From the NCBI GenBank assembly GCA_963680875.1, contig OY804586.1, forward strand, positions 53,168,203 through 53,232,202: a DNA stretch of 64,000 bases, read 5' to 3'. The notes beneath the pieces are model-generated. The model had not been told where the DNA came from, ran no database searches, and saw only the letters and a list, made by a program, of their open reading frames with translations. The position numbers and the translations under genes were made by a program. Origin of the DNA: Bathymodiolus brooksi. Its lineage: Eukaryota > Mollusca > Bivalvia > Mytilida > Modiolidae. Below are positions 3,001-58,676 of this stretch, piece by piece (the stretch's first letter is position 1; every line of letters begins with the position of its first letter).

Positions 3001-3515
3001 ACTAAAGCCCGACAGAAGATACCTTCAACCTATTCCTAAGACTGGTCTTGATAAGATTATACCTACTAAAGCCCGACAGAAGATACCTTCAACCTATTCC
3101 TAAGACTGGTCTTGATAAGATTATACCTACTAAAGCCCGACAGAAGATACCTTCAACCTATTCTTAAGATTGGTCTTGATAAGATTATACCTACTAAAGC
3201 CCGAGAGAAGATACCTTCAACCTATTCTTAAAATTGGTCTTGATAAGATTATACCTACTAAAGCCCGACAGAAGATACCTTCAACCTATTCCTAAGACTG
3301 GTCTTGATAAGATTATACCTACTAAAGCCCGACAGAAGATACCTTCAACCTATTCCTAAGACTGGTCTTGATAAGATTATACCTACTAAAGCCCGACAGA
3401 AGATACCTTCAACCTATTCTTAAGATTGGTCTTGATAAGATTATACCTACTAAAGCCCGACAGAAGATACCTTCAACCTATTCTTAAGATTGGTCTTGAT
3501 AAGATTATACCTACT

Positions 3516-17300: not shown

Positions 17301-17800
17301 CCTATTCTTAAGATTGGTCTTGATAAGATTATACCTACTAAAGCCCGACAGAAGATACCTTCAACCTATTCCTAAGACTAGTCTTGATAAGATTATACCT
17401 ACTAAAGCCCGACAGAAGATACCTTCAACCTATTCCTAAGACTGGTCTTGATAAGATTATACCTACTAAAGCCCGACAGAAGATACCTTCAACCTATTCT
17501 TAAGATTGGTCTTGATAAGATTATACCTACTAAAGCCCGACAGAAGATACCTTCAACCTATTCTTAAGATTGGTCTTGATAAGATTATACCTACCAAAGC
17601 CCGACAGAAGATACCTTCAACCTATTCCTAAGACTGGTCTTGATAAGATTATACCTACTAAAGCCCGACAGAAGATACCTTCAACCTATTCCTAAGACTG
17701 GTCTTGATAAGATTATACCTACTAAAGCCCGACAGAATATACTTTTAACCTATTCTTAAGATTGGTCTTGATAAGATTATACCTACTAAATCCCGACAGA
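8341..17800. repeat. 4.6-kb (72-monomer) segmental duplication inside the satellite
   Basis: At least a dozen private variants recur at +4608 bp (72 x 64). Examples are cttgaacct 8911/13519, cctattcttt 9301/13909, aaatcccgatag 10044/14652, tactgaagc 10107/14715, cttcataaga 10661/15269, taacgccc 11131/15739 and tgttcttg 11171/15779. The offset then falls to 4544 (ggattgg 11551/16095, aacctttact 12371/16915) and to 4160 (cctaagacta 13211/17371). So the right copy later lost one monomer and then six. A 25-monomer (1600-bp) shift also links 8391/8441/8601 with 9991/10041/10201. Confidence 0.85.
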
Positions 17801-19970
17801 AGATACCTTCAACCTATTCTTAAGATTGGTCTTGATAAGATTATACCTACTAAAGCCCGACAGAAGATACCTTCAAACTATTCTTAAGATTGGTCTTGAT
17901 AAGATTATACCTACTAAAGCCCGACAGAAGATACCTTCAACCTATTCCTAAGATTGGTCTTGATAAGATTATACCTACTAACGCCCGACAGAAGATACCT
18001 TCAACCTATTCTTAAGATTGGTCTTGATAAGATTATACCTACTAAAGCCAGACAGAAGATACCTTCAACCTATTCTTAAGATTGGTCTTGATAAGATTAT
18101 ACCTACTAAAGCCCGACAGAAGATACCTTCAACCTATTCCTTAGATTGGTCTTGATAAGATTATACCTACTAAAGCCCGACAGAAGATACCTTCAACCTA
18201 TTCTTAAGATTGGTCTTGATAAGATTATACCTACTAAAGCCCGACAGAAGATACCTTCAACCTATTCCTAAGACTGGTCTTGATAAGATTATACCTACTA
18301 AAGCCCGACAGAAGATACCTTCAACCTATTCTTAAGATTGGTCTTGATAAGATTATACCTACTAAAGCCCGACAGAAGATACCTTCAACCTATTCTTAAG
18401 ATTGGTCTTGATAAGATTATACCTACTAAAGCCCGACAGAATATACCTTCAACCTATTCTTAAGATTGGTCTTGATAAGATTATACCTACTAAAGCCCGA
18501 CAGAAGATACCTTCAACCTATTCCTAAGACTGGTCTTGATAAGATTATACCTACTAAAGCCCGACAGAAGATACCTTCAACCTATTCCTAAGACTGGTCT
18601 TGATAAGATTATACCTACTAAAGCCCGACAGAAGATACCTTCAACCTATTCTTAAGATTGGTCTTGATAAGATTATACCTACTAAAGCCCGACAGAAGAT
18701 ACCTTCAACCTATTCTTAAGATTGGTCTTGATAAGATTATACCTACTAAAGCCCGACAGAAGATACCTTCAACCTATTCCTAAGACTGGTCTTGATAAGA
18801 TTATACCTACTAAAGCCCGACAGAAGATACCTTCAACCTATTCCTAAGACTGGTCTTGATAAGATTATACCTACTAAAGCCCGACAGAAGATACCTTCAA
18901 CCTATTCTTAAGATTGGTCTTGATAAGATTATACCTACTAAAGCCCGACAGAAGATACCTTCAACCTATTCTTAAGATTGGTCTTGATAAGATAATACCT
19001 ACCAAAGCCCGACAGAAGATACCTTCAACCTATTCTTAAGATTGGTCTTGATAAGATTATACCTACTAAAGCCCGACAGAAGATACCTTCAACCTATTAC
19101 TAAGACTGGTCTTGATAAGATTATACCTACTAAAGTCCGACAGAAGATACCTTCAACCTATTCTTAAGATTGGTCTTGATAAGATTATACCTACTAAAGC
19201 CAGACAGAAGATACCTTCAACCTATTCTTAAGATTGGTCTTGATAAGATTATACCTACCAAAGCCCGACAGAAGATACCTTCGACCTATTCCTAAGACTG
19301 GTCTTGATAAGATTATACCTACTAAAGCCCGACAGAAGATACCTTCAACCTATTCCTAAGACTGGTCTTGATAAGATTATACCTACTAAAGCCCGACAGA
19401 AGATACCTTCAACCTATTCTTAAGATTGGTCTTGATAAGATTATACCTACTAAAGCCCGACAGAAGATACCTTCAACCTATTCTTAAGATTGGTCTTGAT
19501 AAGATTATACCTACTAAAGCCCGACAGAAGATACCTTCAACCTATTCTTAAGATTGGTCTTGATAAGATTATACCTACTAAAGCCCGACAGAAGATACCT
19601 TCAACCTATGCCTAAGACTGGTCTTGATAAGATTATACCTACTAAAGCCCGACAGAAGATACCTTCAACCTATTCTTAAGATTGGTCTTGATAAGATTAT
19701 ACCTACTAAAGCCAAACAGAAGATACCTTCAACCTATTCTTAAGATTGGTCTTGATAAGATTATACCTACTAAAGCCAGACAGAAGATACCTTCAACCTA
19801 TTCCTAAGATTGGTCTTGATAAGATTATACCTACTAAAGCCCGACAGAAGATACCATCAACCTATTCTTAAGATTGGTCTTGATAAGATTATACCTACTA
19901 TAGCCCGACAGAAGATACCTTCAACCTATTCTTAAGATTGGTCTTGATAAGATTATACCTACTAAAGCCC

Positions 19971-22900
19971 GACTGAAGATACCTTCAACCTATTCCTAAG
20001 ACTGGTCTTGAAAAGATTATACCTACTAAAGCCCGACAGAAGATACCTTCAACCTATTCCTAAGACTGGTCTTGATAAGATTATACCTACTAAAGTCCGA
20101 CAGAAGATACCTTCAACCTATTCCTAAGATTGGTCTTGATAAGATTATACCTACTAAAGCCCGACAGAAGATACCTTCAACCTATTCCTAAGACTGATCT
20201 TGATAAGATTATACCTACTAAAGCCCGACAGAAGATACCTTCAACCTATTCTTAAGATTGGTCTTGATAAGATTATACCTACTAAAGCCCGACAGAAGAT
20301 ACCTTCAACCTATTCTTAAGATTGGTCTTGATAAGATTATACCTACTAAAGCCCGACAGAAGATACCTTCAACCTATTTTTAAGATTGGTCTTGATAAGA
20401 TTATACCTACTAAAGCCCGACAGAAGATACCTTCAACCTATTCCTAAGACTGGTCTTGATAAGATTATACCTACTAAAGCCCGACAGAAGATACCTTCAA
20501 CCTATTCCTAAGACTGGTCTTGATAAGATTATACCTACTAAAGCCCGACAGAAGATACCTTCAACCTATTCTTAAGATTGGTCTTGATAAGATTATACCT
20601 ACTAAAGCCCGACAGAAGATACCTTCAACCTATTCTTAAGATTGGTCTTGATAAGATTATACCTACTAAAGCCCGACAGAAGATACCTTCAACCTATTCT
20701 TAAGATTGGTCTTGATAAGATTATACCTACTAAAGACCGACAGAAGATACCTTCAACCTATTCTTAAGATTGGTCTTGATAAGATTATACCTACTAAAGC
20801 CAGACAGAAGATACCTTCAACCTATTCTTAAGATTGGTCTTGATAAGATTATACCTACTAAAGCCCGACAGAAGATACCTTCAACCTATTCCTAAGACTG
20901 GTCTTGATAAGATTATACCTACTAAAGCCCGACAGAAGATACCTTCAACCTATTCCTAAGACTGGTCTTGATAAGATTATACCTACTAAAGCCCGACAGA
21001 AGATACCTTCAACCTATTCTTAAGATTGGTCTTGATAAGATTATACCTACTAAAGCCCGACAGAAGATACCTTCAACCTATTCTTAAGATTGGTCTTGAT
21101 AAGATAATACCTACCAAAGCCCGACAGAAGATACCTTCAACCTATTCTTAAGATTGGTCTTGATAAGATTATACCTACTAAAGCCCGACAGAAGATACCT
21201 TCAACCTATTCCTAAGACTGGTCTTGATAAGATTATACCTACTAAAGTCCGACAGAAGATACCTTCAACCTATTCTTAAGATTGGTCTTGATAAGATTAT
21301 ACCTACTAAAGCCCGACAGAAGATACCTTCAACCTATTCTTAAGATTGGTCTTGATAAGATTATACCTACCAAAGCCCGACAGAAGATACCTTCAACCTA
21401 TTCCTAAGACTGGTCTTGATAAGATTATACCTACTAAAGCCCGACAGAAGATACCTTCAACCTATTCCTAAGACTGGTCTTGATAAGATTATACCTACTA
21501 AAGCCCGACAGAAGATACCTTCAACCTATTCTTAAGATTGGTCTTGATAAGATTATACCTACTAAAGCCCGACAGAAGATACCTTCAACCTATTCTTAAG
21601 ATTGGTCTTGATAAGATTATACCTACTAAAGCCCGACAGAAGATACCTTCAACCTATTCTTAAGATTGGTCTTGATAAGATTATACCTACTAAAGCCCGA
21701 CAGAAGATACCTTCAACCTATGCCTAAGACTGGTCTTGATAAGATTATACCTTCTAAAGCCCGACAGAAGATACCTTCAACCTATTCTTAAGATTGGTCT
21801 TGATAAGATTATACCTACGAAAGCCAGACAGAAGATACCTTTAACCTATTCTTAAGATTGGTCTTGATAAGATTATACCTACTAAAGCCAGACAGAAGAT
21901 ACCTTCAACCTATTCCTAAGATTGGTCTTGATAAGATTATACCTACTAAAGCCCGACAGAAGATACCTTCAACCTATTCTTAAGATTGGTCTTTATAAGA
22001 TTATACCTACTAAAGCCCGACTGAAGATACCTTCAACCTATTCCTAAGACTGGTCTTGATAAGATTATACCTACTAAAGCCCGACAGAAGATACCTTCAA
22101 CCTATTCCTAAGACTGGTCTTGATAAGATTATACCTACTAAAGTCCGACAGAAGATACCTTCAACCTATTCCTAAGATTGGTCTTGATAAGATTATACCT
22201 ACTAAAGCCCGACAGAAGATACCTTCAACCTATTCCTAAGACTGATCTTGATAAGATTATACCTACTAAAGCCCGACAGAAGATACCTTCAACCTATTCT
22301 TAAGATTGGTCTTGATAAGATTATACCTACTAAAGCCCGACAGAAGATACCTTCAACCTATTCTTAAGATTGGTCTTGATAAGATTATACCTACTAAAGC
22401 CCGACAGAAGATACCTTCAACCTATTTTTAAGATTGGTCTTGATAAGATTATACCTACTAAAGCCCGACAGAAGATACCTTCAACCTATTCCTAAGACTG
22501 GTCTTGATAAGATTATACCTACTAAAGCCCGACAGAAGATACCTTCAACCTATTCCTAAGACTGGTCTTGATAAGATTATACCTACTAAAGCCCGACAGA
22601 AGATACCTTCAACCTATTCTTAAGATTGGTCTTGATAAGATTATACCTACTAAAGCCCGACAGAAGATACCTTCAACCTATTCTTAAGATTGGTCTTGAT
22701 AAGATTATACCTACTAAAGCCCGACAGAAGATACCTTCAACCTATTCCTAAGATTAATCTTGATAAGATTATACCTACTAAAGCCCGACAGAAGATACCT
22801 TCAACCTATTCCTAAGACTGGTCTTGATAAGATTATACCTACTAAAGTCCGACAGAAGATACCTTCAACCTATTCTTAAGATTGGTCTTGATAAGATTAT

Positions 22901-25900
22901 ACCTACTAAAGCCCGACAGAGGATACCTTCAACCTATTCTTAAGATTGGTCTTGATAAGATTATACCTACTAAAGCCCGACAGAAGATACCTTCAACCTA
23001 TTCCTAAGACTGGTCTTGATAAGATTATACCTACTAAAGCCCGACAGAAGATACCTTTAACCTATTCTTAAGATTGGTCTTGATAAGATTATACCTACTA
23101 AAGCCCGACAGAAGATACCTTCAACCTATTCTTAAGATTGGTCTTGATAAGATTATACCTACTAAAGCCCGACAGAAGATACCTTCAACCTATTCCTAAG
23201 ACTGGTCTTGATAAGATTATACCTACTAAAGCCCGACAGAAGATACCTTCAACCTATTCCTAAGACTGGTCTTGATAAGATTATACCTACTAAAGCCCGA
23301 CAGAAGATACCTTCAACCTATTCTTAAGATTGGTCTTGATAAGATTATACCTACTAAAGCCGGACAGAAGATACCTTCAACCTATTCTTAAGATTGGTCT
23401 TGATAAGATTATACCTACTAAAGCCCGACAGAAGATACCTTCAACCTATTCTTAAGATTGGTCTTAATAAGATTATACCTACTAAAGCCCGACAGAAGAT
23501 ACCTTCAACCTATGCCTAAGACTGGTCTTGATAAGATTATACCTTCTAAAGCCCGACAGAAGATACCTTCAACCTATTCTTAAGATTGGTCTTGATAAGA
23601 TTATACCTACGAAAGCCAGACAGAAGATACCTTTAACCTATTCTTAAGATTGGTCTTGATAAGATTATACCTACTAAAGCCAGACAGAAGATACCTTCAA
23701 CCTATTCCTAAGATTGGTCTTGATAAGATTATACCTACTAAAGCCCGACAGAAGATACCTTCAACCTATTCTTAAGATTGGTCTTGATAAGATTATACCT
23801 ACTAAAGCCCGACTGAAGATACCTTCAACCTATTCCTAAGACTGGTCTTGATAAGATTATACCTACTAAAGCCCGACAGAAGATACCTTCAACCTATTCC
23901 TAAGACTGGTCTTGATAAGATTATACCTACTAAAGTCCGACAGAAGATACCTTCAACCTATTCCTAAGATTGGTCTTGATAAGATTATACCTACTAAAGC
24001 CCGACAGAAGATACCTTCAACCTATTCCTAAGACTGATCTTGATAAGATTATACCTACTAAAGCCCGACAGAAGATACCTTCAACCTATTCTTAAGATTG
24101 GTCTTGATAAGATTATACCTACTAAAGCCCGACAGAAGATACCTTCAACCTATTCTTAAGATTGGTCTTGATAAGATTATACCTACTAAAGCCCGACAGA
24201 AGATACCTTCAACCTATTTTTAAGATTGGTCTTGATAAGATTATACCTACTAAAGCCCGACAGAAGATACCTTCAACCTATTCCTAAGACTGGTCTTGAT
24301 AAGATTATACCTACTAAAGCCCGACAGAAGATACCTTCAACCTATTCCTAAGACTGGTCTTGATAAGATTATACCTACTAAAGCCCGACAGAAGATACCT
24401 TCAACCTATTCTTAAGATTGGTCTTGATAAGATTATACCTACTAAAGCCCGACAGAAGATACCTTCAACCTATTCTTAAGATTGGTCTTGATAAGATTAT
24501 ACCTACTAAAGCCCGACAGAAGATACCTTCAACCTATTCCTAAGATTAATCTTGATAAGATTATACCTACTAAAGCCCGACAGAAGATACCTTCAACCTA
24601 TTCCTAAGACTGGTCTTGATAAGATTATACCTACTAAAGTCCGACAGAAGATACCTTCAACCTATTCTTAAGATTGGTCTTGATAAGATTATACCTACTA
24701 AAGCCCGACAGAAGATACTTTCAACCTATTCTTAAGATTGGTCTTGATAAGATTATACCTACTAAAGCCCGACAGAAGATACCTTCAACCTATTCTTAAG
24801 ATTGGTCTTGATAAGATTATACCTACTAAAGCCCGACAGAAGATACCTTCAACCTATTCTTAAGATTGGTCTTGATAAGATTATACCTACTAAAGCCCGA
24901 CAGAAGATACCTTCAACCTATTCCTAAGACTGGTCTTGATAAGATTATACCTACTAAAGCCCGACAGAAGATACCTTCACCTATTCTTAAGATTGGTCTT
25001 GATAAGATTATACCTACTAAAGCCCGACAGAAGATACCTTCAACCTATTCTTAAGATTGGTCTTGATAAGATTATACCTACCAAAGCCCGACAGAAGATA
25101 CCTTCAACCTATTCCTAAGACTGGTCTTGATAAGATTATACCTACTAAAGCCCGACAGAAGATACCTTCAACCTATTCCTAAGACTGGTCTTGATAAGAT
25201 TATACCTACTAAAGCCCGACAGAAGATACTTTCAACCTATTCTTAAGATTGGTCTTGATAAGATTATACCTACTAAATCCCGACAGAAGATACCTTCAAC
25301 CTATTCTTAAGATTGGTCTTGATAAGATTATACCTACTAAAGTCCGACAGAAGATACCTTCAACCTATTCTTAAGATTGGTCTTGATAAGATTATACCTA
25401 CTAAAGCCCAACAGAAGATACCTTCAACCTATGCCTAAGACTGGTCTTGATAAGATTATACCTACTAAAGCCCGACAGAAGATACCTTCAACCTATTCTT
25501 AAGATTGGTCTTGATAAGATTATACCTACTAAAGCCCGACAGAAGATACCTTCAACCTATTCTTAAGATTGGTCTTGATAAGATTATACCTACTAAAGCC
25601 CGACAGAAGATACCTTCAACCTATTCCTTAGATTGGTCTTGATAAGATTATACCTACTAAAGCCCGACAGAAGATACCTTCAACCTATTCTTAAGATTGG
25701 TCTTGATAAGATTATACCTACTAAAGCCCGACAGAAGATACCTTCAACCTATTCCTAAGACTGGTCTTGATAAGATTATACCTACTAAAGCCCGACAGAA
25801 GATACCTTCAACCTATTCTTAAGATTGGTCTTGATAAGATTATACCTACTAAAGCCCGACAGAAGATACCTTCAACCTATTCTTAAGATTGGTCTTGATA

Positions 25901-27880
25901 AGATTATACCTACTAAAGCCCGACAGAAGATACCTTCAACCTATTCCTAAGACTGGTCTTGATAAGATTATACCTACTAAAGCCCGACAGAAGATACCTT
26001 CAACCTATTCCTAAGACTGGTCTTGATAAGATTATACCTACTAAAGCCCGACAGAAGATACCTTCAACCTATTCTTAAGATTGGTCTTGATAAGATTATA
26101 CCTACTAAAGTCCGACAGAAGATACCTTCAACCTGTTCTTAAGATTGGTCTTGATAAGATAATACCTACCAAAGCCCGACAGAAGATACCTTCAACCTAT
26201 TCTTAAGATTGGTCTTGATAAGATTATACCTACTAAAGCCCGACAGAAGATACCTTCAACCTATTCCTAAGACTGGTCTTGATAAGATTATACCTACTAA
26301 AGTCCGACAGAAGATACCTTCAACCTATTCTTAAGATTGGTCTTGATAAGATTATACCTACTAAAGCCCGACAGAAGATACCTTCAACCTATTCTTAAGA
26401 TTGGTCTTGATAAGATTATACCTACTAAAGCCCGACAGAAGATACCTTCAACCTATTCCTAAGACTGGTCTTGATAAGATTATACCTACTAAAGCCCGAC
26501 AGAAGATACCTTCAACCTATTCCTAAGACTGGTCTTGATAAGATTATACCTACTAAAGCCCGACAGAAGATACCTTCAACCTATTCTTAAGATTGGTCTT
26601 GATAAGATTATACCTACTAAAGCCCGACAGAAGATACCTTCAACCTATTCTTAAGATTGGTCTTGATAAGATTATACCTACTAAAGCCCGACAGAAGATA
26701 CCTTCAACCTATTCTTAAGATTGGTCTTGATAAGATTATACCTACTAAAGCCCGACAGAAGATACCTTCAACCTATGCCTAAGACTGGTCTTGATAAGAT
26801 TATACCTACTAAAGCCCGACAGAAGATACCTTCAACCTATTCTTAAGATTGGTCTTGATAAGATTATACCTACTAAAGCCAGACAGAAGATACCTTTAAC
26901 CTATTCTTAAGATTGGTCTTGATAAGATTATACCTACTAAAGCCAGACAGAAGATACCTTCAACCTATTCCTAAGATTGGTCTTGATAAGATTATACCTA
27001 CTAAAGCCCGACAGAAGATACCTTCAACCTATTCTTAAGATTGGTCTTGATAAGATTATACCTACTAAAGCCCGACAGAAGATACCTTCAACCTATTCTT
27101 AAGATTGGTCTTGATAAGATTATACCTACTAAAGCCCGACTGAAGATACCTTCAACCTATTCCTAAGACTGGTCTTGATAAGATTATACCTACTAAAGCC
27201 CGACAGAAGATACCTTCAACCTATTCCTAAGACTGGTCTTGATAAGATTATACCTACTAAAGTCCGACAGAAGATACCTTCAACCTATTCCTAAGATTGG
27301 TCTTGATAAGATTATACCTACTAAAGCCCGACAGAAGATACCTTCAACCTATTCCTAAGACTGATCTTGATAAGATTATACCTACTAAAGCCCGACAGAA
27401 GATACCTTCAACCTATTCTTAAGATTGGTCTTGATAAGATTATACCTACTAAAGCCCGACAGAAGATACCTTCAACCTATTCTTAAGATTGGTCTTGATA
27501 AGATTATACCTACTAAAGCCCGACAGAAGATACCTTCAACCTATATTTAAGATTGGTCTTGATAAGATTATACCTACTAAAGCCCGACAGAAGATACCTT
27601 CAACCTATTCCTAAGACTGGTCTTGATAAGATTATACCTACTAAAGCCCGACAGAAGATACCTTCAACCTATTCCTAAGACTGGTCTTGATAAGATTATA
27701 CCTACTAAAGCCCGACAGAAGATACCTTCAACCTATTCTTAAGATTGGTCTTGATAAGATTATACCTACTAAAGCCCGACAGAAGATACCTTCAACCTAT
27801 TCTTAAGATTGGTCTTGATAAGATTATACCTACTAAAGCCCGACAGAAGATACCTTCAACCTATTCCTAAGATTAATCTT
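19971..27880. repeat. Marker block repeated four times inside the satellite
   Basis: The variant gactgaag occurs at 19971, 22019, 23811 and 27138. The variant agactgatct occurs at 20191, 22239, 24031 and 27358. Both are spaced 2048, 1792 and 3327 bp (32, 28 and 52 monomers, the last minus the 1-bp deletion at 24961). The variant agattaatct follows the last three at 22751, 24543 and 27870. tacctacga recurs at +1792 (21812/23604). One ancestral block has been copied repeatedly in units of tens of monomers. Confidence 0.85.
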
Positions 27881-30800
27881 GATAAGATTATACCTACTAA
27901 AGCCCGACAGAAGATACCTTCAACCTATTCCTAAGACTGGTCTTGATAAGATTATACCTACTAAAGCCCAACAGAAGATACCTTCAACCTATTCTTAAGA
28001 TTGGTCTTGATAAGATTATACCTACTAAAGCCCGACAGAAGATACCTTCAACCTATTCTTAAGATTGGTCTTGATAAGATTATACCTACTAAAGCCCGAC
28101 AGAAGATACCTTCAACCTATTCTTAAGATTGGTCTTGATAAGATTATACCTACTAAAGCCCGACAGAAGATACCTTCAACCTATTCCTAAGACTGGTCTT
28201 GATAAGATTATACCTACTAAAGTCCGACAGAAGATACCTTCAACCTATTCTTAAGATTGGTCTTGATAAGATTATACCTACTAAAGCCCGACAGAGGATA
28301 CCTTCAACCTATTCTTAAGATTGGTCTTGATAAGATTATACCTACTAAAGCCCGACAGAAGATACCTTCAACCTATTCCTAAGACTGGTCTTGATAAGAT
28401 TATACCTACTAAAGCCCGACAGAAGATACCTTTAACCTATTCTTAAGATTGGTCTTGATAAGATTATACCTACTAAAGCCCGACAGAAGATACCTTCAAC
28501 CTATTCTTAAGATTGGTCTTGATAAGATTATACCTACTAAAGCCCGACAGAAGATACCTTCAACCTATTCTTAAGATTGGTCTTGATAAGATTATACCTA
28601 CTAAAGCCCGACAGAAGATACCTTCAACCTATTCTTAAGATTGGTCTTGATAAGATTATACCTACTAAAGCCCGACAGAAGATACCTTCAACCTATTCCT
28701 AAGACTGGTCTTGATAAGATTATACCTACTAAAGCCCGACAGAAGATACCTTCAAACTATTCTTAAGATTGGTCTTGATAAGATTATACCTACTAAAGCC
28801 CGACAGAAGATACCTTCAACCTATTCTTAAGATTGGTCTTGATAAGATTATACCTACCAAAGCCCGACAGAAGATACCTTCAACCTATTCCTAAGACTGG
28901 TCTTGATAAGATTATACCTACTAAAGCCCGACAGAAGATACCTTCAACCTATTCCTAAGACTGGTCTTGATAAGATTATACCTACTAAAGCCCGACAGAA
29001 GATACTTTCAACCTATTCTTAAGATTGGTCTTGATAAGATTATACCTACTAAATCCCGACAGAAGATACCTTCAACCTATTCTTAAGATTGGTCTTGATA
29101 AGATTATACCTACTAAAGTCCGACAGAAGATACCTTCAACCTATTCTTAAGATTGGTCTTGATAAGATTATACCTACTAAAGCCCGACAGAAGATACCTT
29201 CAACCTATGCCTAAGACTGGTCTTGATAAGATTATACCTACTAAAGCCCGACAGAAGATACCTTCAACCTATTCTTAAGATTGGTCTTGATAAGATTATA
29301 CCTACTAAAGCCAGACAGAAGATACCTTCAACCTATTCTTAAGATTGGTCTTGATAAGATTATACCTACTAAAGCCCGACAGAAGATACCTTCAACCTAT
29401 TCCTTAGATTGGTCTTGATAAGATTATACCTACTAAAGCCCGACAGAAGATACCTTCAACCTATTCTTAAGATTGGTCTTGATAAGATTATACCTACTAA
29501 AGCCCGACAGAAGATACCTTCAACCTATTCCTAAGACTGGTCTTGATAAGATTATACCTACTAAAGCCCGACAGAAGATACCTTCAACCTATTCTTAAGA
29601 TTGGTCTTGATAAGATTATACCTACTAAAGCCAGACAGAAGATACCTTCAACCTATTCTTAAGATTGGTCTTGATAAGATTATACCTACTAAAGCCCGAC
29701 AGAAGATACCTTCAACCTATTCTTAAGATTGGTCTTGATAAGATTATACCTACTAAAGCCCGACAGAAGATACCTTCAACCTATTCCTAAGACTGGTCTT
29801 GATAAGATTATACCTACTAAAGCCCGACAGAAGATACCTTCAACCTATTCCTAAGACTGGTCTTGATAAGATTATACCTACTAAAGCCCGACAGAAGATA
29901 CCTTTAACCTATTCTTAAGATTGGTCTTGATAAGATTATACCTACTAAAGCCCGACAGAAGATACTTTCAACCTATTCTTAAGATTGGTCTTGATAAGAT
30001 TATACCTACTAAAGCCCGACAGAAGATACCTTCAACCTATTCCTAAGACTGGTCTTGATAAGATTATACCTACTAAAGCCCGACAGAAGATACCTTCAAC
30101 CTATTCTTAAGATTGGTCTTGATAAGATTATACCTACTAAAGCCCGACAGAAGATACCTTCAACCTATTCTTAAGATTGGTCTTGATAAGATTATACCTA
30201 CTAAAGCCCGACAGAAGATACCTTCAACCTATTCCTAAGACTGGTCTTGATAAGATTATACCTACTAAAGCCCGACAGAAGATACCTTCAACCTATTCCT
30301 AAGACTGGTCTTGATAAGATTATACCTACTAAAGCCCGACAGAAGATACCTTTAACCTATTCTTAAGATTGGTCTTGATAAGATTATACCTACTAAAGCC
30401 CGACAGAAGATACCTTCAACCTATTCTTAAGATTGGTCTTGATAAGATTATACCTACTAAAGCCCGACAGAAGATACCTTCAACCTATTCCTAAGACTGG
30501 TCTTGATAAGATTATACCTACTAAAGCCCGACAGAAGATACCTTCAACCTATTCCTAAGACTGGTCTTGATAAGATTATACCTACTAAAGCCCGACAGAA
30601 GATACCTTCAACCTATTCTTAAGATTGGTCTTGATAAGATTATACCTACTAAAGCCCGACAGAAGATACCTTCAACCTATTCTTAAGATTGGTCTTGATA
30701 AGATTATACCTACTAAAGCCCGACAGAAGATACCTTCCACCTATTCTTAAGATTGGTCTTGATAAGATTATACCTACTAAAGCCCGACAGAAGATACCTT

Positions 30801-33800
30801 CAACCTATTCCTAAGACTGGTCTTGATAAGATTATACCTACTAAAGTCCGACAGAAGATACCTTCAACCTATTCTTAAGATTGGTCTTGATAAGATTATA
30901 CCTACTAAAGCCCGACAGAAGATACCTTCAACCTATTCTTAAGATTGGTCTTGATAAGATTATACCTACCAAAGCCCGACAGAAGATACCTTCAACCTAT
31001 TCCTAAGACTGGTCTTGATAAGATTATACCTACTAAAGCCCGACAGAAGATACCTTCAACCTATTCATAAGACTGGTCTTGATAAGATTATACCTACTAA
31101 AGCCCGACAGAAGATACTTTCAACCTATTCTTAAGATTGGTCTTGATAAGATTATACCTACTAAATCCCGACAGAAGATACCTTCAACCTATTCTTAAGA
31201 TTGGTCTTGATAAGATTATACCTACTAAAGCCCGACAGAAGATACCTTCAACCTATTCTTAAGATTGGTCTTGATAAGATTATACCTACTAAAGCCCGAC
31301 AGAAGATACCTTCAACCTATGCCTAAGAGTGGTCTTGATAAGATTATACCTACTAAAGCCCGACAGAAGATACCTTCAACCTATTCTTAAGATTGGTCTT
31401 GATAAGATTATACCTACTAAAGCCAGATAGAAGATACCTTCAACCTATTCTTAAGATTGGTCTTGATAAGATTATACCTACTAAAGCCCGACAGAAGATA
31501 CCTTCAACCTATTCTTAAGATTGGTCTTGATAAGATTATACCTACTAAAGCCCGACAGAAGATACCTTCAACCTATTCTTAAGATTGGTCTTGATAAGAT
31601 TATACCTACTAAAGCCCGACAGAAGTTACCTTCAACCTATTCCTAAGACTGGTCTTGATAAGATTATACCTACTAAAGCCAGACAGAAGATACCTTCAAC
31701 CTATTCTTAAGATTGGTCTTGATAAGATTATACCTACTAAAGCCCGACAGAAGATACCTTCAACCTATTCTTAAGATTGGTCTTGATAAGATTATACCTA
31801 CTAAAGCCCGACAGAAGATACCTTCAACCTATTCTTAAGATTGGTCTTGATAAGATTATACCTACTAAAGCCCGACAGAAGATACCTTCAACCTATTCCT
31901 AAGACTGGTCTTGATAAGATTATACCTACTAAAGCCCGACAGAAGATACCTTCAACCTATTCCTAAGACTGGTCTTGAAAAGATTATACCTACTAAAGCC
32001 CGACAGAAGATACCTTCAACCTATTCTTAAGATTGGTCTTGATAAGATTATACCTACTAAAGCCCGACAGAAGATACCTTCAACCTATTCCTAAGACTGG
32101 TCTTGATAAGATTATACCTACTAAAGCCCGACAGAAGATACCTTCAACCTATTCCTAAGACTGGTCTTGATAAGATTATACCTACTAAAGCCCGACAGAA
32201 GATACCTTCAACCTATTCCTAAGATTGGTCTTGATAAGATTATACCTACTAAAGCCCGACAGAAGATACCTTCAACCTATTCTTAAGATTGGTCTTGATA
32301 AGATTATACCTACTAAAGCCCGACAGAAGATACCTTCAACCTATTCCTAAGACTGGTCTTGATAAGATTATACCTACTAAAGTCCGACAGAAGATACCTT
32401 CAACCTATTCTTAAGATTGGTCTTGATAAGATTATACCTACTAAAGCCCGACAGAAGATACCTTCAACCTATTCTTAAGATTGGTCTTGATAAGATTATA
32501 CCTACTAAAGCCCGATAGAAGATACCTTCAACCTCTTCCTAAGACTGGTCTTGATAAGATTATACCTACTAAAGCCCGACAGAAGATACCTTCAACCTAT
32601 TCTTAAGATTGGTCTTGATAAGATTATACCTACTAAAGCCCGACAGAAGATACCTTCAACCTATTCTTAAGATTGGTCTTGATAAGATTATACCTACTAA
32701 AGCCCGACAGAAGATACCTTCAACCTATTCTTAAGATTGGTCTTGATAAAATTATACCTACTAAAGCCCGACAGAAGATACCTTCAACCTATTCTTAAGA
32801 TTGGTCTTGAAAAGATTATACCTACTAAAGCCCGACAGAAGATACCTTCAACCTATTCCTAAGATTGGTCTTGATAGGATTATACCTACTAAAGCCCGAC
32901 AGAAGATACCTTCAACCTATTCTTAAGATTGGTCTTGATAAGATTATACCTACTAAAGCCCGACAGAAGATACCTTCAACCTATTCTTAAGATTGGTCTT
33001 GATAAGATTATACCTACTAAAGCCTGACAGAAGATACCTTCAACCTATTCTTAAGATTGGTCTTGATAAGATTATACCTACTAAAGCCCGACAGAAGATA
33101 CCTTCAACCTATTCCTAAGATTGGTCTTGATAAGATTATACCTACTAAAGCCCGACAGAAGATACCTTCAACCTATTCCTAAGATTGGTCTTGATAAGAT
33201 TATACCTACTAAAGCCCGACAGAAGATACCTTCAACCTATTCTTAAGATTGGTCTTGATAAGATTATACCTACTAAAGCCCGACAGAAGATACCTTCAAC
33301 CTATTCTTAAGATTGGTCTTGATAAGATTATACCTACTAAAGCCCGACAAAAGATACCTTCAACCTATTCTTAAGATTGGTCTTGATAAGATTATACCTA
33401 CTAAAGCCCGACAGAAGATACCTTCAACCTATTCTTAAGATTGGTCTTGATAAGATTATACCTACTAAAGCCCGACAGAAGATACCTTCAACCTATTCTT
33501 AAGATTGGTCTTGATAGGATTATACCTACTAAAGCCCGACAGAAGATACCTTCAACCTATTCTTAAGATTGGTCTTGATAAGATTATACCTACTAAAGCC
33601 CGACAGAAGATACCTTCAACCTATTCTTAAGATTGGTCTTGATAAGATTATACCTACTAAAGCCCGACCGAAGATACCTTCAACCTATTCTTAAGATTGG
33701 TCTTGATAAGATTATACCTACTAAAGCCCGACAGAAGATACCTTCAACCTATTCCTAAGATTGGTCTTGATAAGATTATACCTACTAAAGCCCGACAGAA

Positions 33801-34489
33801 GATACCTTCAACCTATTCTTAAGATTGGTCTTGATAAGATTATACCTACTAAAGCCCGACAGAAGATACCTTCAACCTATTCTTAAGATTGGTCTTGATA
33901 AGATTATACCTACTAAAGCCTGACAGAAGATACCTTCAACCTATTCTTAAGATTGGTCTTGATAAGATTATACCTACTAAAGCCCGACAGAAGATACCTT
34001 CAACCTATTCTTAAGATTGGTCTTGATAAGATTATACCTACTAAAGCCCGACAGAAGATACCTTCAACCTATTCCTAAGACTGGTCTTGATAAGATTATA
34101 CCTACTAAAGCCCGACAGAAGATACCTTCAACCTATTCTTAAGATTGGTCTTGATAAGATTATACCTACTAAAGCCCGACAGAAGATACCTTCAACCTAT
34201 TCCTAAGACTGGTCTTGATAAGATTATACCTACTAAAGCCCGACAGAAGATACCTTCAACCTATTCTTAAGATTGGTCTTGATAAGATTATACCTACTAA
34301 AGCCCGACAGAAGATACCTTCAACCTATTCCTAAGACTGGTCTTGATAAGATTATACCTACTAAAGCCCGACAGAAGATACCTTCAACCTATTCCTAAGA
34401 CTGGTCTTGATAAGATTATACCTACTAAAGCCCGACAGAAGATACCTTCAACCTATTCTTAAGATTGGTCTTGATAAGATTATACCTAC

Positions 34490-34915
34490 TAAAGCCCGAC
34501 AGAAGATACCTTCAACCTATTCTTAAGATTGGTCTTGATAAGATTATACCTACTAAAGCCCCTCTCACAATCAACTGAAGACAATGCAGAAAGTAAGTAA
34601 ACTAGAAACTTGTGGATAGTCCACAGAGAAACTGTCCTTTGACAACAAAGAAGATAGAGAAGTCTCCATTTTGACACCCTGGTACCCTGACAACATATGC
34701 TTCATCATCAACCATTCCTCACGAAAATGAACCTCACTGATGAACACCCCTGTCCTGACCAAAATGCCTACAAAGGAAATCAACCTGAACTCTACCATAA
34801 GACTTCAACTCTTGACTACCACTGCTAGGGATCAACTGAGTGTCAAAGATAGAAAGAGTTTGGAAAACATCCTGAGATGGAAAACGACCCTGGAGATTAG
34901 AAACCATTATAAAAA
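34490..34915 (-). pseudogene. Decayed hAT transposase 3' end; probable progenitor of the satellite
   Basis: Three conserved stretches appear in order on the minus strand, in three frames. First (about 34750-34900) is a segment reading LSIFDTQLIP, then ELKSYG and FLCRHFG. Second (about 34600-34770) is FREEWLMMKHMLSGYQ then DYPQVSSLL. Third (34489-34600) is ALSSVDCERGFS continuing into NLIKTNLKNRL. The last resembles the hAT C-terminal dimerisation domain, in which CERxFS and IKTxLRNRL are typical. Two frameshifts and stops separate the parts, so the gene is dead. CER lies in unique DNA while GFSRYNLIKTNLKNRLKV is encoded by the last satellite monomer, with no break in frame at 34560. Upstream parts of the transposase are absent; a SINE-like unit follows from about 34905. 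The hAT family call is confident; the closest subfamily (ZNF862/KIAA1586-like) is a guess. Confidence 0.8.
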
Positions 34916-35022
34916 AAATCCAACTAAGCGTGCTGGTCTAGAATAAAGTTGACCTCACCATAATCTCATTAAAAATTAACTTGTTCTCGCCATGGTATAG
35001 CTAAAAAAGTTGGCGTTAAACA
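34905..35022 (+). mobile_element. SINE-like repeat, family B, partial
   Basis: This matches the 3' half of units at 46985-47158 and 54065-54255. Shared words include atccaacta, cattaaaaattaacttgttctcgccatg and the ending gcgttaaac. It directly abuts the transposase remnant. Confidence 0.6.
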
Positions 35023-36051
35023 AAAATCTCACAATTTCTCCGTAAAATATTTGCATTCGCCGGAAACAATAATAAGGTTAATGTGAATGTAATTGATATA
35101 AGGCGTCATTTATACAACACTTATACAAATGTGTGTATTGTGCCGACTTGATTCTAAAATTATACACTTTTTCGACGTTTTTTTTTTTGCAGTAGTTGCC
35201 TTCCCTCAAGGCTGACAAAAGTACCCGTAACTCTCTTTTGACATTTAAAAAAGGTTACATTAGATACAGATTTCATAAATTAGTATTTGATAGAGGAGAC
35301 ACCAGGCTTGAATGTTTCAGCCGAGCGACTCAAATACTATGGTCCACGACAGTTGGTTCAAGCCAGTATGAGGTTAAAAAAAACAAAAAAACGTTTTCTT
35401 TCTTGCGTCTTTCAAGGATGAATAATGGATGAAGATGAATACATGTACGGTAATTGTCTGAAGATGGAATAAGTCTGTCTTTGAAAAAATAACTCTTTCA
35501 TCGTTTGCTATTTTATACATCATTTAGAATTGCTAAACATGCTAAATGTAACTTGCAAAGGCTGTGCATGGCGTCATTAGGGCAAGTCTAAATTGTAAGA
35601 ATTCTATTCTGAAATTTGCCATATACAATATCGGGTATATTAGAAAACGACTATGTCAATTATTTCCTAACAACGAAAATGTTCTTTTAAAAAAAATAAA
35701 ACATTTAGTTCCCCCATTAGATATTAGAGAATACCAACTGTAAAAAATACTATATACAAAAGTAAATATCATTGTATCTATATACTAAGTATTCTGACAA
35801 TCTCCATTCCCCGGGAGAATTCATTATAGAATTGCACGCAGATTGCTTTTAAATTGGTCGGTGTCTACAAAATGGAATACAATTACTTGATTTCCTTCCA
35901 TTCTGAAGTTAAATATTGTATAATCATCTCTGACACTATAGTGCTTGGAAGTTAGCTATATGTCTGTTATGGTCATTTTAATCGTGATAAAGATATTGTC
36001 GTTTGCAGACATTAGTCTACAGCGTTGCTTACGTCTATCTTACAGGTCTTA
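35023..36051. other. No gene recognised
   Basis: AT-rich DNA with no conserved protein motif. The longest open frame (35196-35432, 78 codons) is unlike any family I know and lacks coding character. No tandem or inverted structure was seen. Confidence 0.5.
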
Positions 36052-36289
36052 GGATTATGGTGTTTAACGCCACTTTCAACAATGTTTCAGTTATATCGCT
36101 GTGGTCAGTTTTATGGTGGAGGAGACCGAAGGACCCGGAGAAATCCACCGACCTGTCGCAAGTCACTGACAAACTTTATCACATAATGCTGTACACCTCG
36201 CCCTGAACGGGATCCGAACTCACATCAGTGGTGATAGGCACTGATTGCATAGGTAGTTGTAAATTCAACTACCATGACGTCCCCTCACC
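36052..36289 (-). mobile_element. tRNA-derived SINE-like repeat, family A
   Basis: Read on the minus strand, the unit has a tRNA-like head with gtagttg (A-box-like) and ttcggatccc in the B-box position (intact copies read gttcgaatccc). A central domain equivalent to ttctccgggtcctt follows, then a tail ending gttaaacaccat. Ten or so copies of this family occur in the window. The core resembles the conserved domain of broad animal SINE superfamilies such as MetaSINEs; that name is tentative. Confidence 0.7.
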
Positions 36290-40945: not shown

Positions 40946-41103
40946 TTTGATAATAATTACATATTTAGGAACTGTAAATTTCAATAATAAATATATCTAA
41001 TAAACCATGTCAGTGCCGAAACACTGATTACTGTGCGGATGATAAACTGTCCATATTCTTGAACTTTGAACTATAGTATATTTAAATAAATCTACTGCTT
41101 ATA

Positions 41104-41113
41104 TATTTTCCAG
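41104..41113 (+). promoter_or_regulatory. Possible 5'-UTR splice acceptor before the F-box start codon
   Basis: A pyrimidine-rich tattttccag ends exactly at the ATG. This suggests that the 5' UTR is in a separate upstream exon and that the single coding exon begins here. Only the motif supports it. Confidence 0.4.
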
Positions 41114-43834
41114 ATGTCTTTTCCAATGGCTGAAGTTAAACCAACAATATCTGACCTACCAGAAGAGATTTTATTAGAAGTTTTTTCGTATCTGACACAT
41201 TTTGATATCTATCAGAATATCAGAAATGTTTGTGTTGGTTGGAAAATTCTAAGTGAATGTGCATGCCTATGGAAATGTATAGACATGGGAAAAGAGATTG
41301 AACTGTTAGGATTCTATTGCTATAGCAATGACCTAGAGAGCAAGATGAAGGTCATGAAGAGCTGGTTGGAGGTTAAATCATGTCACATGTTAAGTTTGGA
41401 TATTGGGCATAATTTTGATTGGTTTGTTAGATGTGTACAAAATAATCTATTAATAGCCTTTCCGAAAGTAACAAAACTTCAGATCGACCTACCGAACTTT
41501 GACATTGATGGTATTATAACTAAATTCTTTCCAAATGTGAGAGATTTACGTTTAAAATGTGATATGAAGTTTGTTGGAAATGTTTTCAATACATTAAATA
41601 TATTACGAAACTTGGAGTGTATAGAATTAAGTTTTGTACCCCCAGTAAATGCTCCATTATATGATACGGAGTGTGATAACATAAATGAAAAATTTGAAAC
41701 GTTATTCCAATTTCGTCCAAATTTAACACGTATTAAAGCTGACATTCTAACATGTAGTTCTGTGAAAGCTTTACTGAGTAATTGTCAAATGCTGGAATAT
41801 TTAGATATTGAATACTGCATCAACCTTGATAGTGAGGCTTTTGATAGCATGCCTATGAAGTACAGCTTGCTCACGTTAAATATGGATAATACATATCTTG
41901 ATGACAAATGTTTGAAAATTATTACCCAGAATGCACCAAATCTTAGACATTTATCTTTACAACGATGTGTGTATGTTACTGATGTAGGTTTTTCGTATGT
42001 TGGTACTCACTGCACGAAATTGGAAACCTTGATTGTAAATAAAGATGCATATTCTAATGGACGGAATATAACAAATGTTGGTGTTGATTCTATTGCAAGA
42101 GGATGTGAACATTTGAAAGTGTTCGTTGCAAAATACTGTCAAGGTATCACCGACGAGGGTATCCAATCTATAGCTGAACACTGTCGTAACATGTCAATTC
42201 TGAAAGTCACTGGCTGCACTGGGATTACTGGTACCGGTGTGGAATATTTGGCATACGGATGTCTGTCATTGCGTCACGTAGAATTTGATGAATGTGTTAA
42301 AGTGACGAGCAAGAGTGTAAACCATTTAATTGTCAATTGCATTTGGTTAGAAACGGTGAAATTTGATAGTTGTAATTTTATATATACGCTGAAATTTAAG
42401 AATTTTCTATTCGCTGATAATAGTATATCATCACAAGGTTTTGTAGGAAATGACCAACAAATAATACGAAATCTTTCTTTACAAGACGTAGTCAACTCTG
42501 GAAACACAACAGATGTTGTTAATATTACTAATAATACATCTGCTAATATCGATGATGAAACCGTCTTGGTTACAACTGCCACAAATGGGAATACTTTAAT
42601 TTTCCCGCAAACTATTTCTTCTCACGAAAACATCGTCACAAATGAGAATACTGTTGCAAGTACTATTTCTGCTGACGAAAACATCGTCACAAATGAGAAT
42701 ACTGTTGCGAGTACTATTTCTGCTGATGAAAACATTGTCACAAATGAGAATACTGTTGCAAATACTATTTCTGCTGACGAAAACATCGTCACAAATGAGA
42801 ATACTGTTGCGAGTACTATTTCTGCTGACGAAAACATCGTCACAAATGAGAATACTGTTGCGAGTACTATTTCTACTGACGAAAACATCGTCACAAATGA
42901 GAATACTGTTGCGAGTACTATTTCTGCTGACGAAAACATTGTCACAAATAAGAATACTGTTGCGAGTACTATTTCTACTAACGAAACAACTACTCTAATA
43001 AACGAGCATAAGACAAACATGAAAGCTGTCACAAGTAATTATATTTCTGCCGACAAAACTACCATCGATACAGTTCAAGTTGTCAGTAATAAATTGAGTA
43101 CTGCTGACAAACAATTTATAACAAATTCTATGAATGTTGATAATAGATCTACTAAATTTGAATTAAAAGCGGCCAACAGCTCTTGCCAAAGAAAACATGA
43201 GATAAAGTTAACCAGTAAAAGCAATGTAAATACATTGAAAAATGCCTCTTGCAAAAACACAGAAGTTGCAGACATAATTCCTCAAACTTTAAAAATTAAT
43301 TATAGAATGCAAGATACTTTACCAAGACATTCACACATGTGCATACTTCATCTTAGCTTTTGTCCAAATATTGGTGATGATTCAGTGAAAGAAATCGCTG
43401 ACTTTTGTCCAGACCTGAGAGAAGTGTATTTTTCAGGAACGTTCTTAATTACTGATGCTTCAATTCAATATTTACTGAAGAAATGTGTCTATCTAAAGGT
43501 ACTGGATATTTCTGGAGGTTCAACACTTGCCAAATCAACTTTTACGGACAAAGTTTTGATCTCGGTTGCAAATTACGGCAACAATTTGCAAGAATTACTG
43601 ATACACAAGAATAATAAGATAACTATATTAGGAATAAGAGAGCTGGTACAGACAAGTACCAGTCTAAAATCTGTGTCATTAACAGAAATGTATAGTACGA
43701 AAAGTAGACTCGGAATTTCACTAGATGACTGTGATTGGATAGTGGAAGAACTTGGAAAAAATAATGTCATGTTAAAACATAATAAGATCAGTCATGTCAT
43801 AAGTATTATAATAAAAAACAACTGCTGGATGTGA
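41114..43834 (+). CDS. F-box and leucine-rich-repeat protein with internal 17-residue repeats
   Basis: The 906-residue protein is encoded without an intron. An F-box lies at residues about 13-58 (LPEEILLEVFSYL, then CVGWKILSECACLWKCID), the part that binds SKP1 in SCF ubiquitin ligases. Cysteine-containing LRRs of the FBXL/AMN1 type follow at about 130-425, with units such as NLRHLSLQRCVYVTDVGF and HLKVFVAKYCQGITDEGI. A low-complexity Asn/Thr/Ser-rich segment (about 430-735) holds the repeat array, and a second LRR block lies at about 740-890. By family knowledge it should be a substrate receptor, with the LRRs reading the target; the target is unknown. The first ATG (41114) directly follows ttttccag, so a 5'-UTR intron may end there; the ATG at 41126 is an alternative. 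It converges with SKIC8. I do not recognise a specific ortholog. Confidence 0.88.
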   Translation: MSFPMAEVKPTISDLPEEILLEVFSYLTHFDIYQNIRNVCVGWKILSECACLWKCIDMGKEIELLGFYCYSNDLESKMKVMKSWLEVKSCHMLSLDIGHNFDWFVRCVQNNLLIAFPKVTKLQIDLPNFDIDGIITKFFPNVRDLRLKCDMKFVGNVFNTLNILRNLECIELSFVPPVNAPLYDTECDNINEKFETLFQFRPNLTRIKADILTCSSVKALLSNCQMLEYLDIEYCINLDSEAFDSMPMKYSLLTLNMDNTYLDDKCLKIITQNAPNLRHLSLQRCVYVTDVGFSYVGTHCTKLETLIVNKDAYSNGRNITNVGVDSIARGCEHLKVFVAKYCQGITDEGIQSIAEHCRNMSILKVTGCTGITGTGVEYLAYGCLSLRHVEFDECVKVTSKSVNHLIVNCIWLETVKFDSCNFIYTLKFKNFLFADNSISSQGFVGNDQQIIRNLSLQDVVNSGNTTDVVNITNNTSANIDDETVLVTTATNGNTLIFPQTISSHENIVTNENTVASTISADENIVTNENTVASTISADENIVTNENTVANTISADENIVTNENTVASTISADENIVTNENTVASTISTDENIVTNENTVASTISADENIVTNKNTVASTISTNETTTLINEHKTNMKAVTSNYISADKTTIDTVQVVSNKLSTADKQFITNSMNVDNRSTKFELKAANSSCQRKHEIKLTSKSNVNTLKNASCKNTEVADIIPQTLKINYRMQDTLPRHSHMCILHLSFCPNIGDDSVKEIADFCPDLREVYFSGTFLITDASIQYLLKKCVYLKVLDISGGSTLAKSTFTDKVLISVANYGNNLQELLIHKNNKITILGIRELVQTSTSLKSVSLTEMYSTKSRLGISLDDCDWIVEELGKNNVMLKHNKISHVISIIIKNNCWM
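42626..42985 (+). repeat. 51-bp coding minisatellite, 7 copies
   Basis: gaaaacatcgtcacaaatga starts copies at 42626, 42677, 42728, 42779, 42830, 42881 and 42932; a partial copy follows at 42983. The unit is in frame and encodes ENIVTNENTVASTISAD with few changes. It sits inside the linker between the two LRR blocks. Confidence 0.95.
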
Positions 43835-49100: not shown

Positions 49101-52100
49101 AGTAGTACGTAAACACAGAATGAATTCCTACACTGTTAGATAAAAAATAAACCATAGTGGATACTGCAAAATACTGAATGTCAGCAGAAATCTACAGATT
49201 TAAGGATCATTTTAAGCCCATATTTGATGACTTTGTGGACTTAAATAAAAAAAATGATTTCATTGGATAGTGGCCAGTCAAAAGTGAAAGTAGAATTTTT
49301 GAATGTTAACCACTTAAAGCAGACAATTTGTTTCTCATATTCTACTAAATGTAGGTCAGTGTTGCTCATGATTTTAGTTTTTTGTGTTATCCTATTATGT
49401 GTCTCTACGTTCTGAGTTCCTTGTTGTGATGTCCGTTACAATTTCCGCATAAAAACGATGGGGTTCGTCTTTACCCCCAGGTGTTTGTAGTAGGGCGCAT
49501 GTCTTATTTACATTATTTGTGTTTGTTTGCATATAGTGGTGTCCAATACATATTGTGTTGTGTTTTTGTTTTGTTTTTCTTTGTCTTGTGTACCCTATGT
49601 CAACAGTTTCTCTGAATTGTCCTTTCGGTATTCTTTTACGTCTATTTACAGGGCCACTTTTTCATTGACAAGAAAGTGGGCTTATAATGGGGGAATACTA
49701 TACATGAAATTTAAATGACACAAATATGTATACAATATTAAATCTACCTGGAGACAAAATGTGTGTCATCTTTACAGAAATCTACACTTAATACCCAGGA
49801 TCCATGTCCTGACAGGGCACCAGCCATAATTGCATGTTGTCTGAAAGATAAAAATATTTTTGTTGTCAATATAGCAGTCCTCACCGGTCCTCCGGCCCAA
49901 GACCAGCAAAACTTTGTTCGGACCAGTAAATTTTTTTTATAAATTATTTTTTTTAAAGTTTTTCAAACTATAAATTCAAGAATTTGATTTGGACCAGTAA
50001 ATTCAAATTTTCATTGCGAGGACTGTTTTTATCTACTTGTTATTTTTTAGCCCATGACAATTATCAGATTATCCACCCATTTTCAATGATGGTCTTGCAT
50101 TCACATGAATATATGCATGCATGAACTAATGAATTTACAGTATATTCCATTCATGATTTCTTTTATAAGGATTTCCAATTTGAGCAACAACAAACAAATC
50201 ACAATCAGTATTTTTCAATCAGTACGATATCAGCTTCCTTAAATAAAAAATGCAAAAAATCAGAATTAAAAATATATAATTATCAGCTCTAATGATTAAA
50301 GGGATTATAATAATGAATACTCTAAAATTATTAGAATGGAACACATTTTCAAGCATTAAAATAAAACTAGAGGCTCAGGTGAGCCTGTATCGCTCACCTG
50401 ACATAAATAAGTCCTCTTAAGAATGTCTGCATGTTGAATACATCTAAGTTACTATTCAAATCCCATACTGCCATAGGGTTTTATGTTAAAACTATGTCTG
50501 CTCATGGCAGCCATCTTGGATGGAGGTCGTGGTCACCAGACACAATTTTGAAAGTATACTACCCAAGGACCATCCATGCCATGTTTGCTTTAAATTGGCT
50601 GACTGGTTTCAGAAGAGAAGACTTTTAAACAATTTTCCCATAGGGTCCTATGTTAAAACTATGTCTGCTGACGGCGGCCATTTTGAACCGAGATCGGGAT
50701 CACTGAACACAATTTTGGAAGTTGACCACCTAAGGACCATCGATGACATGTTTGCTATATTGGCTTACTAGTTTCAGAGGAAAAGATTTTAAAACATTTT
50801 TTCCCATAGGGTCCTATGTTAAAACTACAGTATGTCTGCTGAAGGTGGCCATCTTGGATGGAGGTCAGGGTCACTGGACACAATTTTGAAAATTGACCAC
50901 TTAAGGACCATCCATGCCATGTTTGCTTTAAATTGGCTTACTGGTTTCAGAGAAGAAGATTTTTAAATATATTTCCCATAGGGTCCTATGTTAAAACTAT
51001 GTTCGCTGATGGAGGTCGGGGTCACAGGACATAATTTTGAAAGTTGACCACCTAAGGACCATTCATCCCATGTTTGCTTTAAACTGACTTACTGGTTTCA
51101 GAGGAGAAGACTATTAAACATTTTTTCCATAGGGTCCTATGTTAAAATTAAGTCGAGTCATGGCGGCCATCTTGAATTTCCGATCAGCAAACGATTCACA
51201 AGTTTAGTAAAGGACCACCCAATGATCATTCCTGCAAAGCCACAATTCAATTGGCTTAGTGGTTTCTAACAAGAAGATTTTTAAAATTTCGACCAATCAG
51301 AACACATTATAGGCCCTGGCAGCCATGTTGGATTTCCGATCAGCACCAAAAACAAAATCTTGTATATGACCATCCAATGAACATTTCTGCCAAGTTTGGT
51401 TCAAATCTGTTTTGTGGTTTCAGAAAAAAAGATGAAAATGTGAAATTCCCATAGGGTCCAATGTTAAACTAAGTCGAGTCATGGCGGCCATCTTGAATTT
51501 CCGATTGGCAAACGATTCACAAGTTTAGTACAGGACCATCCAATGATCATTCCTGCAAAGTCACAATTCAATTGGCTTAGTGGTTTCTAACAAGAAGATT
51601 TTTAAAATTTTGACCAATCAGAACACATTATGGGCCCTGGCAGCCATGTTGGATTTCCGATCAGCGCCAAAAACAAAAATCTTGTATATGACCATCCAAT
51701 GAACATTTCTGCCAAGTTTGATTCAAATCTGTTTTGTGGTTTCAGAAAAAAAGATGAAAATGTGAAATTCCCATAGGGTCTAATGTTAAACTAAGTCGAG
51801 TCATGGTGGCCATCTTGAATTTCCGATCGGCAAACGATTCACAAGTTTAGTACAGGACCATCCAATGATCATTCCTGCAAAGTCACAATTCAATTGGCTT
51901 AGTGGTTTCTAACAAGAAGATTTTTTAAATTTTGACCAATCAGAACACATTATGGGCCCTGGCAGCCATGTTGGATTTCCGATCAGCGCCAAAAACAAAA
52001 ATCTTGTATATGACCATCCAATGAACATTTCTGCCAAGTTTGATTCAAATCTGTTTTGTGGTTTCAGAAAAAAAGATGAAAATGTGAAATTCCCATAGGG

Positions 52101-58660: not shown

Positions 58661-58676
58661 CGGAATATATGTTAAA

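Follow-up and report, generated by a model that had tools for sequence, protein, structure and literature searches.

The 64,000-nucleotide stretch of Bathymodiolus brooksi DNA analyzed here (the window; C15:53168203-53232202, contig OY804586.1, in a 2.0-Gb genome) opens with a tandem array of a 64-bp unit, which raises the questions of where this unit came from and whether the array grew at the site where it now lies. An earlier note, made from the letters of the window, proposed that the satellite was born from the C-terminal segment of a hAT transposase. This proposal holds: the monomer is a slice of the transposase ORF that is matched both in relatives and in copies from the same genome. 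We regard it as very probable that one copy of a hAT-like transposon acquired a 64-bp internal duplication from which a non-coding array grew in place. The features of the window are collected in Table 1.

Table 1. Positions of the array, the transposase remnant, and other features in the window
Feature	Position	Strand	Description
64-bp tandem array, window part	1..34561	-	~540 monomers; Tandem Repeats Finder
Edge monomer	34498..34561	-	Codes GFSRYNLIKTNLKNRLKVSSV; unit GGGCTTTAG...TCTGTC, contiguous in the C3, C17, and C10 ORFs
Array/element junction	34561..34562	-	GAGAG^GGGC
hAT-like transposase ORF remnant	34562..34905	-	P0001 residues ~379-501, spread over three frames; abuts the array
End of a high-copy dispersed repeat	34905..35048		Cuts off the hAT remnant; 35 further places among the best 40 matches
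Dispersed repeat	36049..36276		Recurs at many same-genome loci compared; pieces over 100 bp ~78-89% alike
Long open frame	41090..43834	+	F-box and leucine-rich repeats
Coding minisatellite	42611..42986		In the F-box/leucine-rich repeat frame; 51-bp unit, 7.4 copies, 17 residues per unit
Tandem arrays	50471..52728 and 58667..59372		Units of 151, 322, and 312 bp; consensus units share CCATCTTG stretches
Palindromic unit arrays	61210..62282		ATACTGGTAATACCAGTATT-type units, periods 32, 64, 34, and 44 (Tandem Repeats Finder)
Open frame	62583..63347	+	Weak integrase core match (PF00665, E 1.9e-4, under cut-off)

A relic of a transposase ORF adjoins the array

When P0001, a 558-amino acid Mytilus edulis protein annotated as zinc finger protein 862-like, was compared with the window by tblastn, residues 379-435 and 436-491 matched positions 34907-34737 and 34747-34580, respectively (62-65% identity), with a joint E value of 1e-33. 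These are the two upstream transposase blocks that the earlier note had placed in the expected order, and each lies in another frame. The in-frame junction described there is also present, as a minus-strand frame that reads WTIHKFLVYLLSALSSVDCER up to the boundary and GFSRYNLIKTNLKNRLKVSSVGL beyond it; in this frame ...LSALSSVDCER runs unbroken into GFSRYNLIKTNLKNRLKVSSVGL, followed by two stops. The boundary, previously set at 34560, is real, but its exact position is 34561/34562, one base off. A conceptual translation joining the three blocks, with X at stops, retrieved the Mytilus edulis protein with an E value of 3.6e-52 and a query coverage of 99% (of 213 candidates, 5 had an E value of 10 or lower), and comparison of the translated blocks with hAT transposases, a check suggested with the original claim, gave a hAT-type match. 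At the DNA level, the remnant and its same-genome copies form one alignment, with some indels, from ~34906 through the junction and into the first monomer. Starting near residue 379 of the 558 in P0001, the remnant is truncated at its 5' end and carries frameshifts; beyond 34905, the rest of the 64-kb window gave no other significant hAT match.

Searches for domains and structures gave no hAT match in the remnant itself. Pfam gave no match to the separate blocks and, with the joined blocks, no hAT match and one irrelevant match at E 0.69; no solved structure matched the transposase pieces at E up to 10, and Rfam gave no match in the window at the gathering score. The lack of a Pfam hAT domain in the remnant pieces would fit a chance resemblance of 34562-34620 to a hAT motif, in which case the junction would be meaningless. 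We consider the probability of this negligible, as chance similarity is argued against by the E value of 3.6e-52 to the Mytilus protein, by the 93-97% gap-free DNA identity to three same-genome copies, and by a far flank that comes from the same element family (see below).

The placement of the family was taken from its protein relatives. With the C-terminal part of P0001 as query, 13 of 1171 candidate proteins, one of them the query itself, reached an E value of 1e-5 or lower. The hAT dimerization domain (PF05699, Dimer_Tnp_hAT) is annotated by precomputed matches on 8 of these 13 proteins and is absent from P0001 and its closest relatives. P0001 scores 16.8 bits against this domain, under the cut-off of 21.4, and P0005, a distant relative of P0001, scores above it, at 27.1 bits. 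When nine of the 13 were aligned with P0005, CER, FS, N, IK, and the first R and last L of LRNRL proved invariant across all ten proteins. By protein similarity, the putative source element is a hAT-like (ZNF862-like) transposon.

The monomer matches one contiguous slice of the ORF

Read on the minus strand, the 64-bp monomer encodes GFSRYNLIKT(N/S)L(K/R)NRLKVSSV and has one base left over. Taken site by site, the consensus of the monomers of full length is GGCTTTAGTAGGTATAATCTTATCAAGACCAATCTTAGGAATAGGTTGAAGGTATCTTCTGTCG, and the monomer seam is TCTTCTGTCGGGCTTTAG. Across the same slice, P0001 reads CERGFSRYNLIKTYLRNRLRVSSVNTLL (longer context, SALSSVDCERGFSRYNLIKTYLRNRLRVSSVNTLLNI), and the 341-amino acid protein P0006 matches the monomer after CER with CERGFSRYNLIKTNIRNRLKVSSVNT and continues as GFSRYNLIKTNIRNRLKVSSVNT. 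What follows CER therefore matches the monomer in the Mytilus edulis protein, in P0006, and in the same-genome copies; an intact relative that departs from the monomer there, which the earlier note had named as a refutation, was not seen.

The genome search with P0001, in which the best 78 of 957 candidates were scored, gave copies on contigs C3, C1, and C17 that are close but broken and extend into the slice, a shorter copy on C10 that breaks just past it, two short close N-terminal pieces on C16 and C14, and numerous relatives at a greater distance. In a DNA search with the flank (best 40 of 2285 candidates), the matches besides the window were to C3 (89%), C17 (88%), C10 (90%), and C1 (71%), and the other 35 of the 40 covered only the dispersed repeat at ~34905-35030. 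Without gaps, the ORF remnant is identical to C3 at 315/339 positions, to C17 at 300/317, and to C10 at 209/216 (93-97%); with gaps counted, identity to these three copies is 88-90%. In the genome search for intact hAT copies that had been suggested, the close copies among the best 78 of 957 candidates were thus broken; they align to the monomer past CER.

Three of these copies (C3, C17, and C10) hold the slice once each and read through it into (N/S)TLLK, and C1 has 49 bp of the slice, once, followed by a deletion. At 63 of the 63 positions compared, the array consensus agrees with the base that most of the C3, C17, and C10 slices share; over these 63 nt, C3 differs from the consensus at three sites, C10 at two, and C17 at one, the nearest copy matching at 62/63. 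The duplicated unit is exactly 64 contiguous bases, and its two ends, GAGAG^GGGC versus CTGTC^AACA (C3 and C10) or CTATC^AGCA (C17), share no bases. The monomer is a contiguous slice of a hAT-like transposase ORF and is co-linear with the ORF in P0001, P0006, and more distant proteins.

In the stretches read, the array is absent from C3, C17, C10, and C1 (4/4 copies). Because the slice is conserved outside this genome and the same-genome copies are array-free, the transposon is taken to be older than the array. Divergence adds little to this order: monomers differ by 3.0% on average, and the remnant differs from the other copies by 3-9% without gaps. The reverse order, an older satellite that was inserted in or captured by a transposon, has a precedent in that the available text of PMC7320549 names monomer capture by transposons as a less likely alternative for a plant case. 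We give it next to no weight here, as the monomer is part of a protein, conserved in relatives, and is present singly in three array-free copies and partially in a fourth.

Sequence at the far edge of the array

In the assembly, the array extends left of the window to C15:53155801, for a total of 46,963 bp and ~734 monomers, the last of which is incomplete. Its other edge, 12.4 kb left of the window, breaks within a monomer at GGTTGAAG and is followed by TTTGTTATTATTTATTATGTAATAGTTGCTAAA. The sequence at this edge corresponds to the 3' flank of the C3 and C10 copies, with order and strand conserved: pieces of ~44, 39, and 220 bp follow each other in element order and on the element strand up to the shared end CCCTG (E down to ~1e-84), and individually they are 87-98% identical to C3 and 94-95% identical to C10. 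Only the last 45 bp are found in C1 and none in the C17 stretch that was read, so the 3' match is carried mainly by two copies. The last piece ends in ..CCTAGCTAAAACCCTG, as it does in C3, C10, and C1. Examination of the other edge, which had been proposed as a check, has thus found the 3' flank of the same element family.

Relative to C3, the left edge lacks ~190 bp made up of the end of the ORF and part of the 3' flank; AG is common to both sides. Two insertions split the pieces of the 3' flank. One, of ~200 bp (L010:7355-7556), starts with GGGACGGATCCAGG, ends with CGCCCCTGG, and contains a run of 15 G; from its motif, we take it to resemble a small hAT-type non-autonomous element. The other, of 1.7 kb (L010:5603-7315; C15:53153805-53155517), has the inverted ends CATGTCCGTAACT/AGTTACGGCCATG and is flanked by CTGTATT repeats.

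Elements of the hAT type carry terminal inverted repeats and create an 8-bp target-site duplication. The 3' end of the present element, ..CCCTG, is common to the array locus, C3, C10, and C1, and the sequences beyond it differ. The 5' part of the element and its 5' terminal repeat were not found in the upstream stretches of C3, C1, C17, and C10, and no target-site duplication was found in the stretches around the array locus and the copies.

At both edges, the array in the assembly is physically continuous with the element, and it lies between the ORF and the 3' end, as within one element copy. Such co-linearity with the element at each end suggests that the array grew where it lies. The array may instead have arisen in another copy of the transposon and arrived here in a moved or duplicated piece, which would leave its transposase origin intact and change only its birthplace. 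We judge this very unlikely: all listed matches to the monomer (best 40 of 76 candidates) fall within the C15 array, and none of the four further close copies with slice sequence carries an array in the stretches read (best 78 of 957 candidates in the protein search and best 40 of 2285 in the DNA search).

The array is long, homogenized, and non-coding

For positions 1-34561, Tandem Repeats Finder gave a period of 64, 540 copies, and 97% matches. An amplification of more than 540-fold, as estimated in the earlier note, therefore agrees with the 540 copies in the window and the 734 monomers overall. The array contains 131 haplotypes, and 731 of the 734 monomers have a length of 64, one of the three exceptions being the N/K edge copy, whose count includes an extra base. 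It is thus long and homogenized. In the genome search with the monomer, the matches listed, part of a total of 381, all lie at one locus, C15:53155801-53202763 of 106822986, which at a relative position of 0.498 is the middle of C15.

Two sites account for the main monomer types, which are N/K (333/734), S/R (324), N/R (67), S/K (4), and other (3); both common variants are nonsynonymous. The second site codes R in all four paralogues and is invariant among the ten aligned proteins, and the first codes N in three of the four, C3 having S. Because R is coded by all four paralogues and N by three of them, N/R is likely the founder type, with N/K and S/R derived. The right-edge copy is one substitution from the consensus, and its haplotype is the commonest in the array (212/734). 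Its AAG stands at a codon that specifies R in all four paralogues; the right edge has hence been homogenized or mutated. As an unchanged donor, this copy was rejected: its haplotype is N/K, and K is absent from all four paralogues. The earlier idea that the donor copy remains at the array edge is hence retained for the donor position and not for an unchanged or distinguishable donor, since an edge copy with the commonest, slightly derived haplotype cannot be told apart as such.

Of the single changes possible, the 731 full-length monomers show 61 of the 147 that are nonsynonymous and 20 of the 42 that are synonymous, a ratio of 0.87, and the longest open stretch in the array is 74 codons. A protein function of the array was considered and rejected, as the 3n+1 unit breaks the frame, the longest ORF has 74 codons, and the variants look neutral at the codon level. 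The array is non-coding tandem DNA whose codon-level variation looks neutral.

Blocks of as many as 17 successive monomers are found again, identical, at a lag of 81, whereas 10 shuffles reach 5-6. Private differences per monomer, counted without the two common variant sites, average 0.1 in the first 10 monomers, 0.33 in the last 10, and 0.49 in the rest. Decay of the edge at the hAT side was also considered and rejected: there is no gradient, and an apparent divergence in the first 61 monomers comes from one out-of-register monomer.

Proposed course of array formation

In the course that we propose, one copy of the hAT-like transposon, which may have degenerated before or afterward, would have gained a 64-bp tandem duplication within the codons for the conserved CERGFS...LRNRL stretch, in the dimerization region. 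This first duplication may have come from a staggered break repaired by end joining, which fits the lack of shared bases at the breakpoints better than slippage on a short repeat does. Growth to ~734 copies would then have proceeded by exchange and by duplication of multi-monomer blocks; copied blocks are seen in the array, and the route may have been unequal exchange or break-induced copying. A later deletion of ~190 bp with a 2-bp AG overlap would have cut the far edge back as far as the 3' untranslated part, and the two other insertions would have split the 3' flank.

Discussion

Satellites made of transposase codons are already known, and the B. brooksi array extends the short list of them by an animal, hAT-like example. 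In the Chenopodium satellite CficCl-61-40, a ~40-bp slice of the tnp2 gene of the CACTA-like element Jozin is the start monomer, and there, as in B. brooksi, a short transposase slice starts an array that is attached to an incomplete transposase (PMC7320549). According to the available text of that paper, CficCl-61-40 comes from a plant CACTA element, forms arrays of ~8 to 125 monomers of ~40 bp with the transposase on one side, is 82.1-94.9% similar to its parental slice, and occurs in several arrays and species. The B. brooksi case differs in being animal and hAT-like, with a 64-bp unit, one array of 734 monomers seen, the element on both sides, and a consensus that matches the nearest copy at 62 of 63 positions.

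Bivalve satellites of transposon origin include Helitron/Helentron-associated repeats and the Pearl-related BIV160 and HindIII repeats; in the available texts these are described as repeats of non-autonomous elements, whereas the B. brooksi array is a coding slice at one locus (PMC11136912, PMC7492417, PMC9659126). Monomers that overlap the coding part of a transposon, as in B. brooksi, are also found in PROsat, Pvc 20 (LINE-1 ORF2), and the chicken HinfI repeat (CR1), whose sources are retrotransposons (PMC9659126). Among the entries seen in PMC9659126, one satellite, CficCl-61-40, is transposase-derived, and the part of its Table 1 that was available has no row named hAT. No hAT-derived satellite appears in the available parts of PMC10794571 and PMC12324416, and none was found among open-licence papers on hAT elements and satellites, judged by title and the start of the abstract.

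The beginnings of satellites are usually inferred, because their source is lost or scattered. In B. brooksi both flanks survive, which makes the evidence unusually complete. A still more specific picture would be that of a single founding locus, in which a blunt 64-bp duplication in a dead transposon copy has grown in place to ~47 kb halfway along a 107-Mb contig and might develop into a (peri)centromeric satellite of that chromosome; we hold this to be decidedly unlikely as a whole. Since the source, the breakpoints, both flanks, and array-free sister copies are all readable, a base-by-base account can be given of the first duplication, of the monomer that was probably ancestral, and of the sequence of later events. 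Populations or sister species can serve to trace how the array grew.
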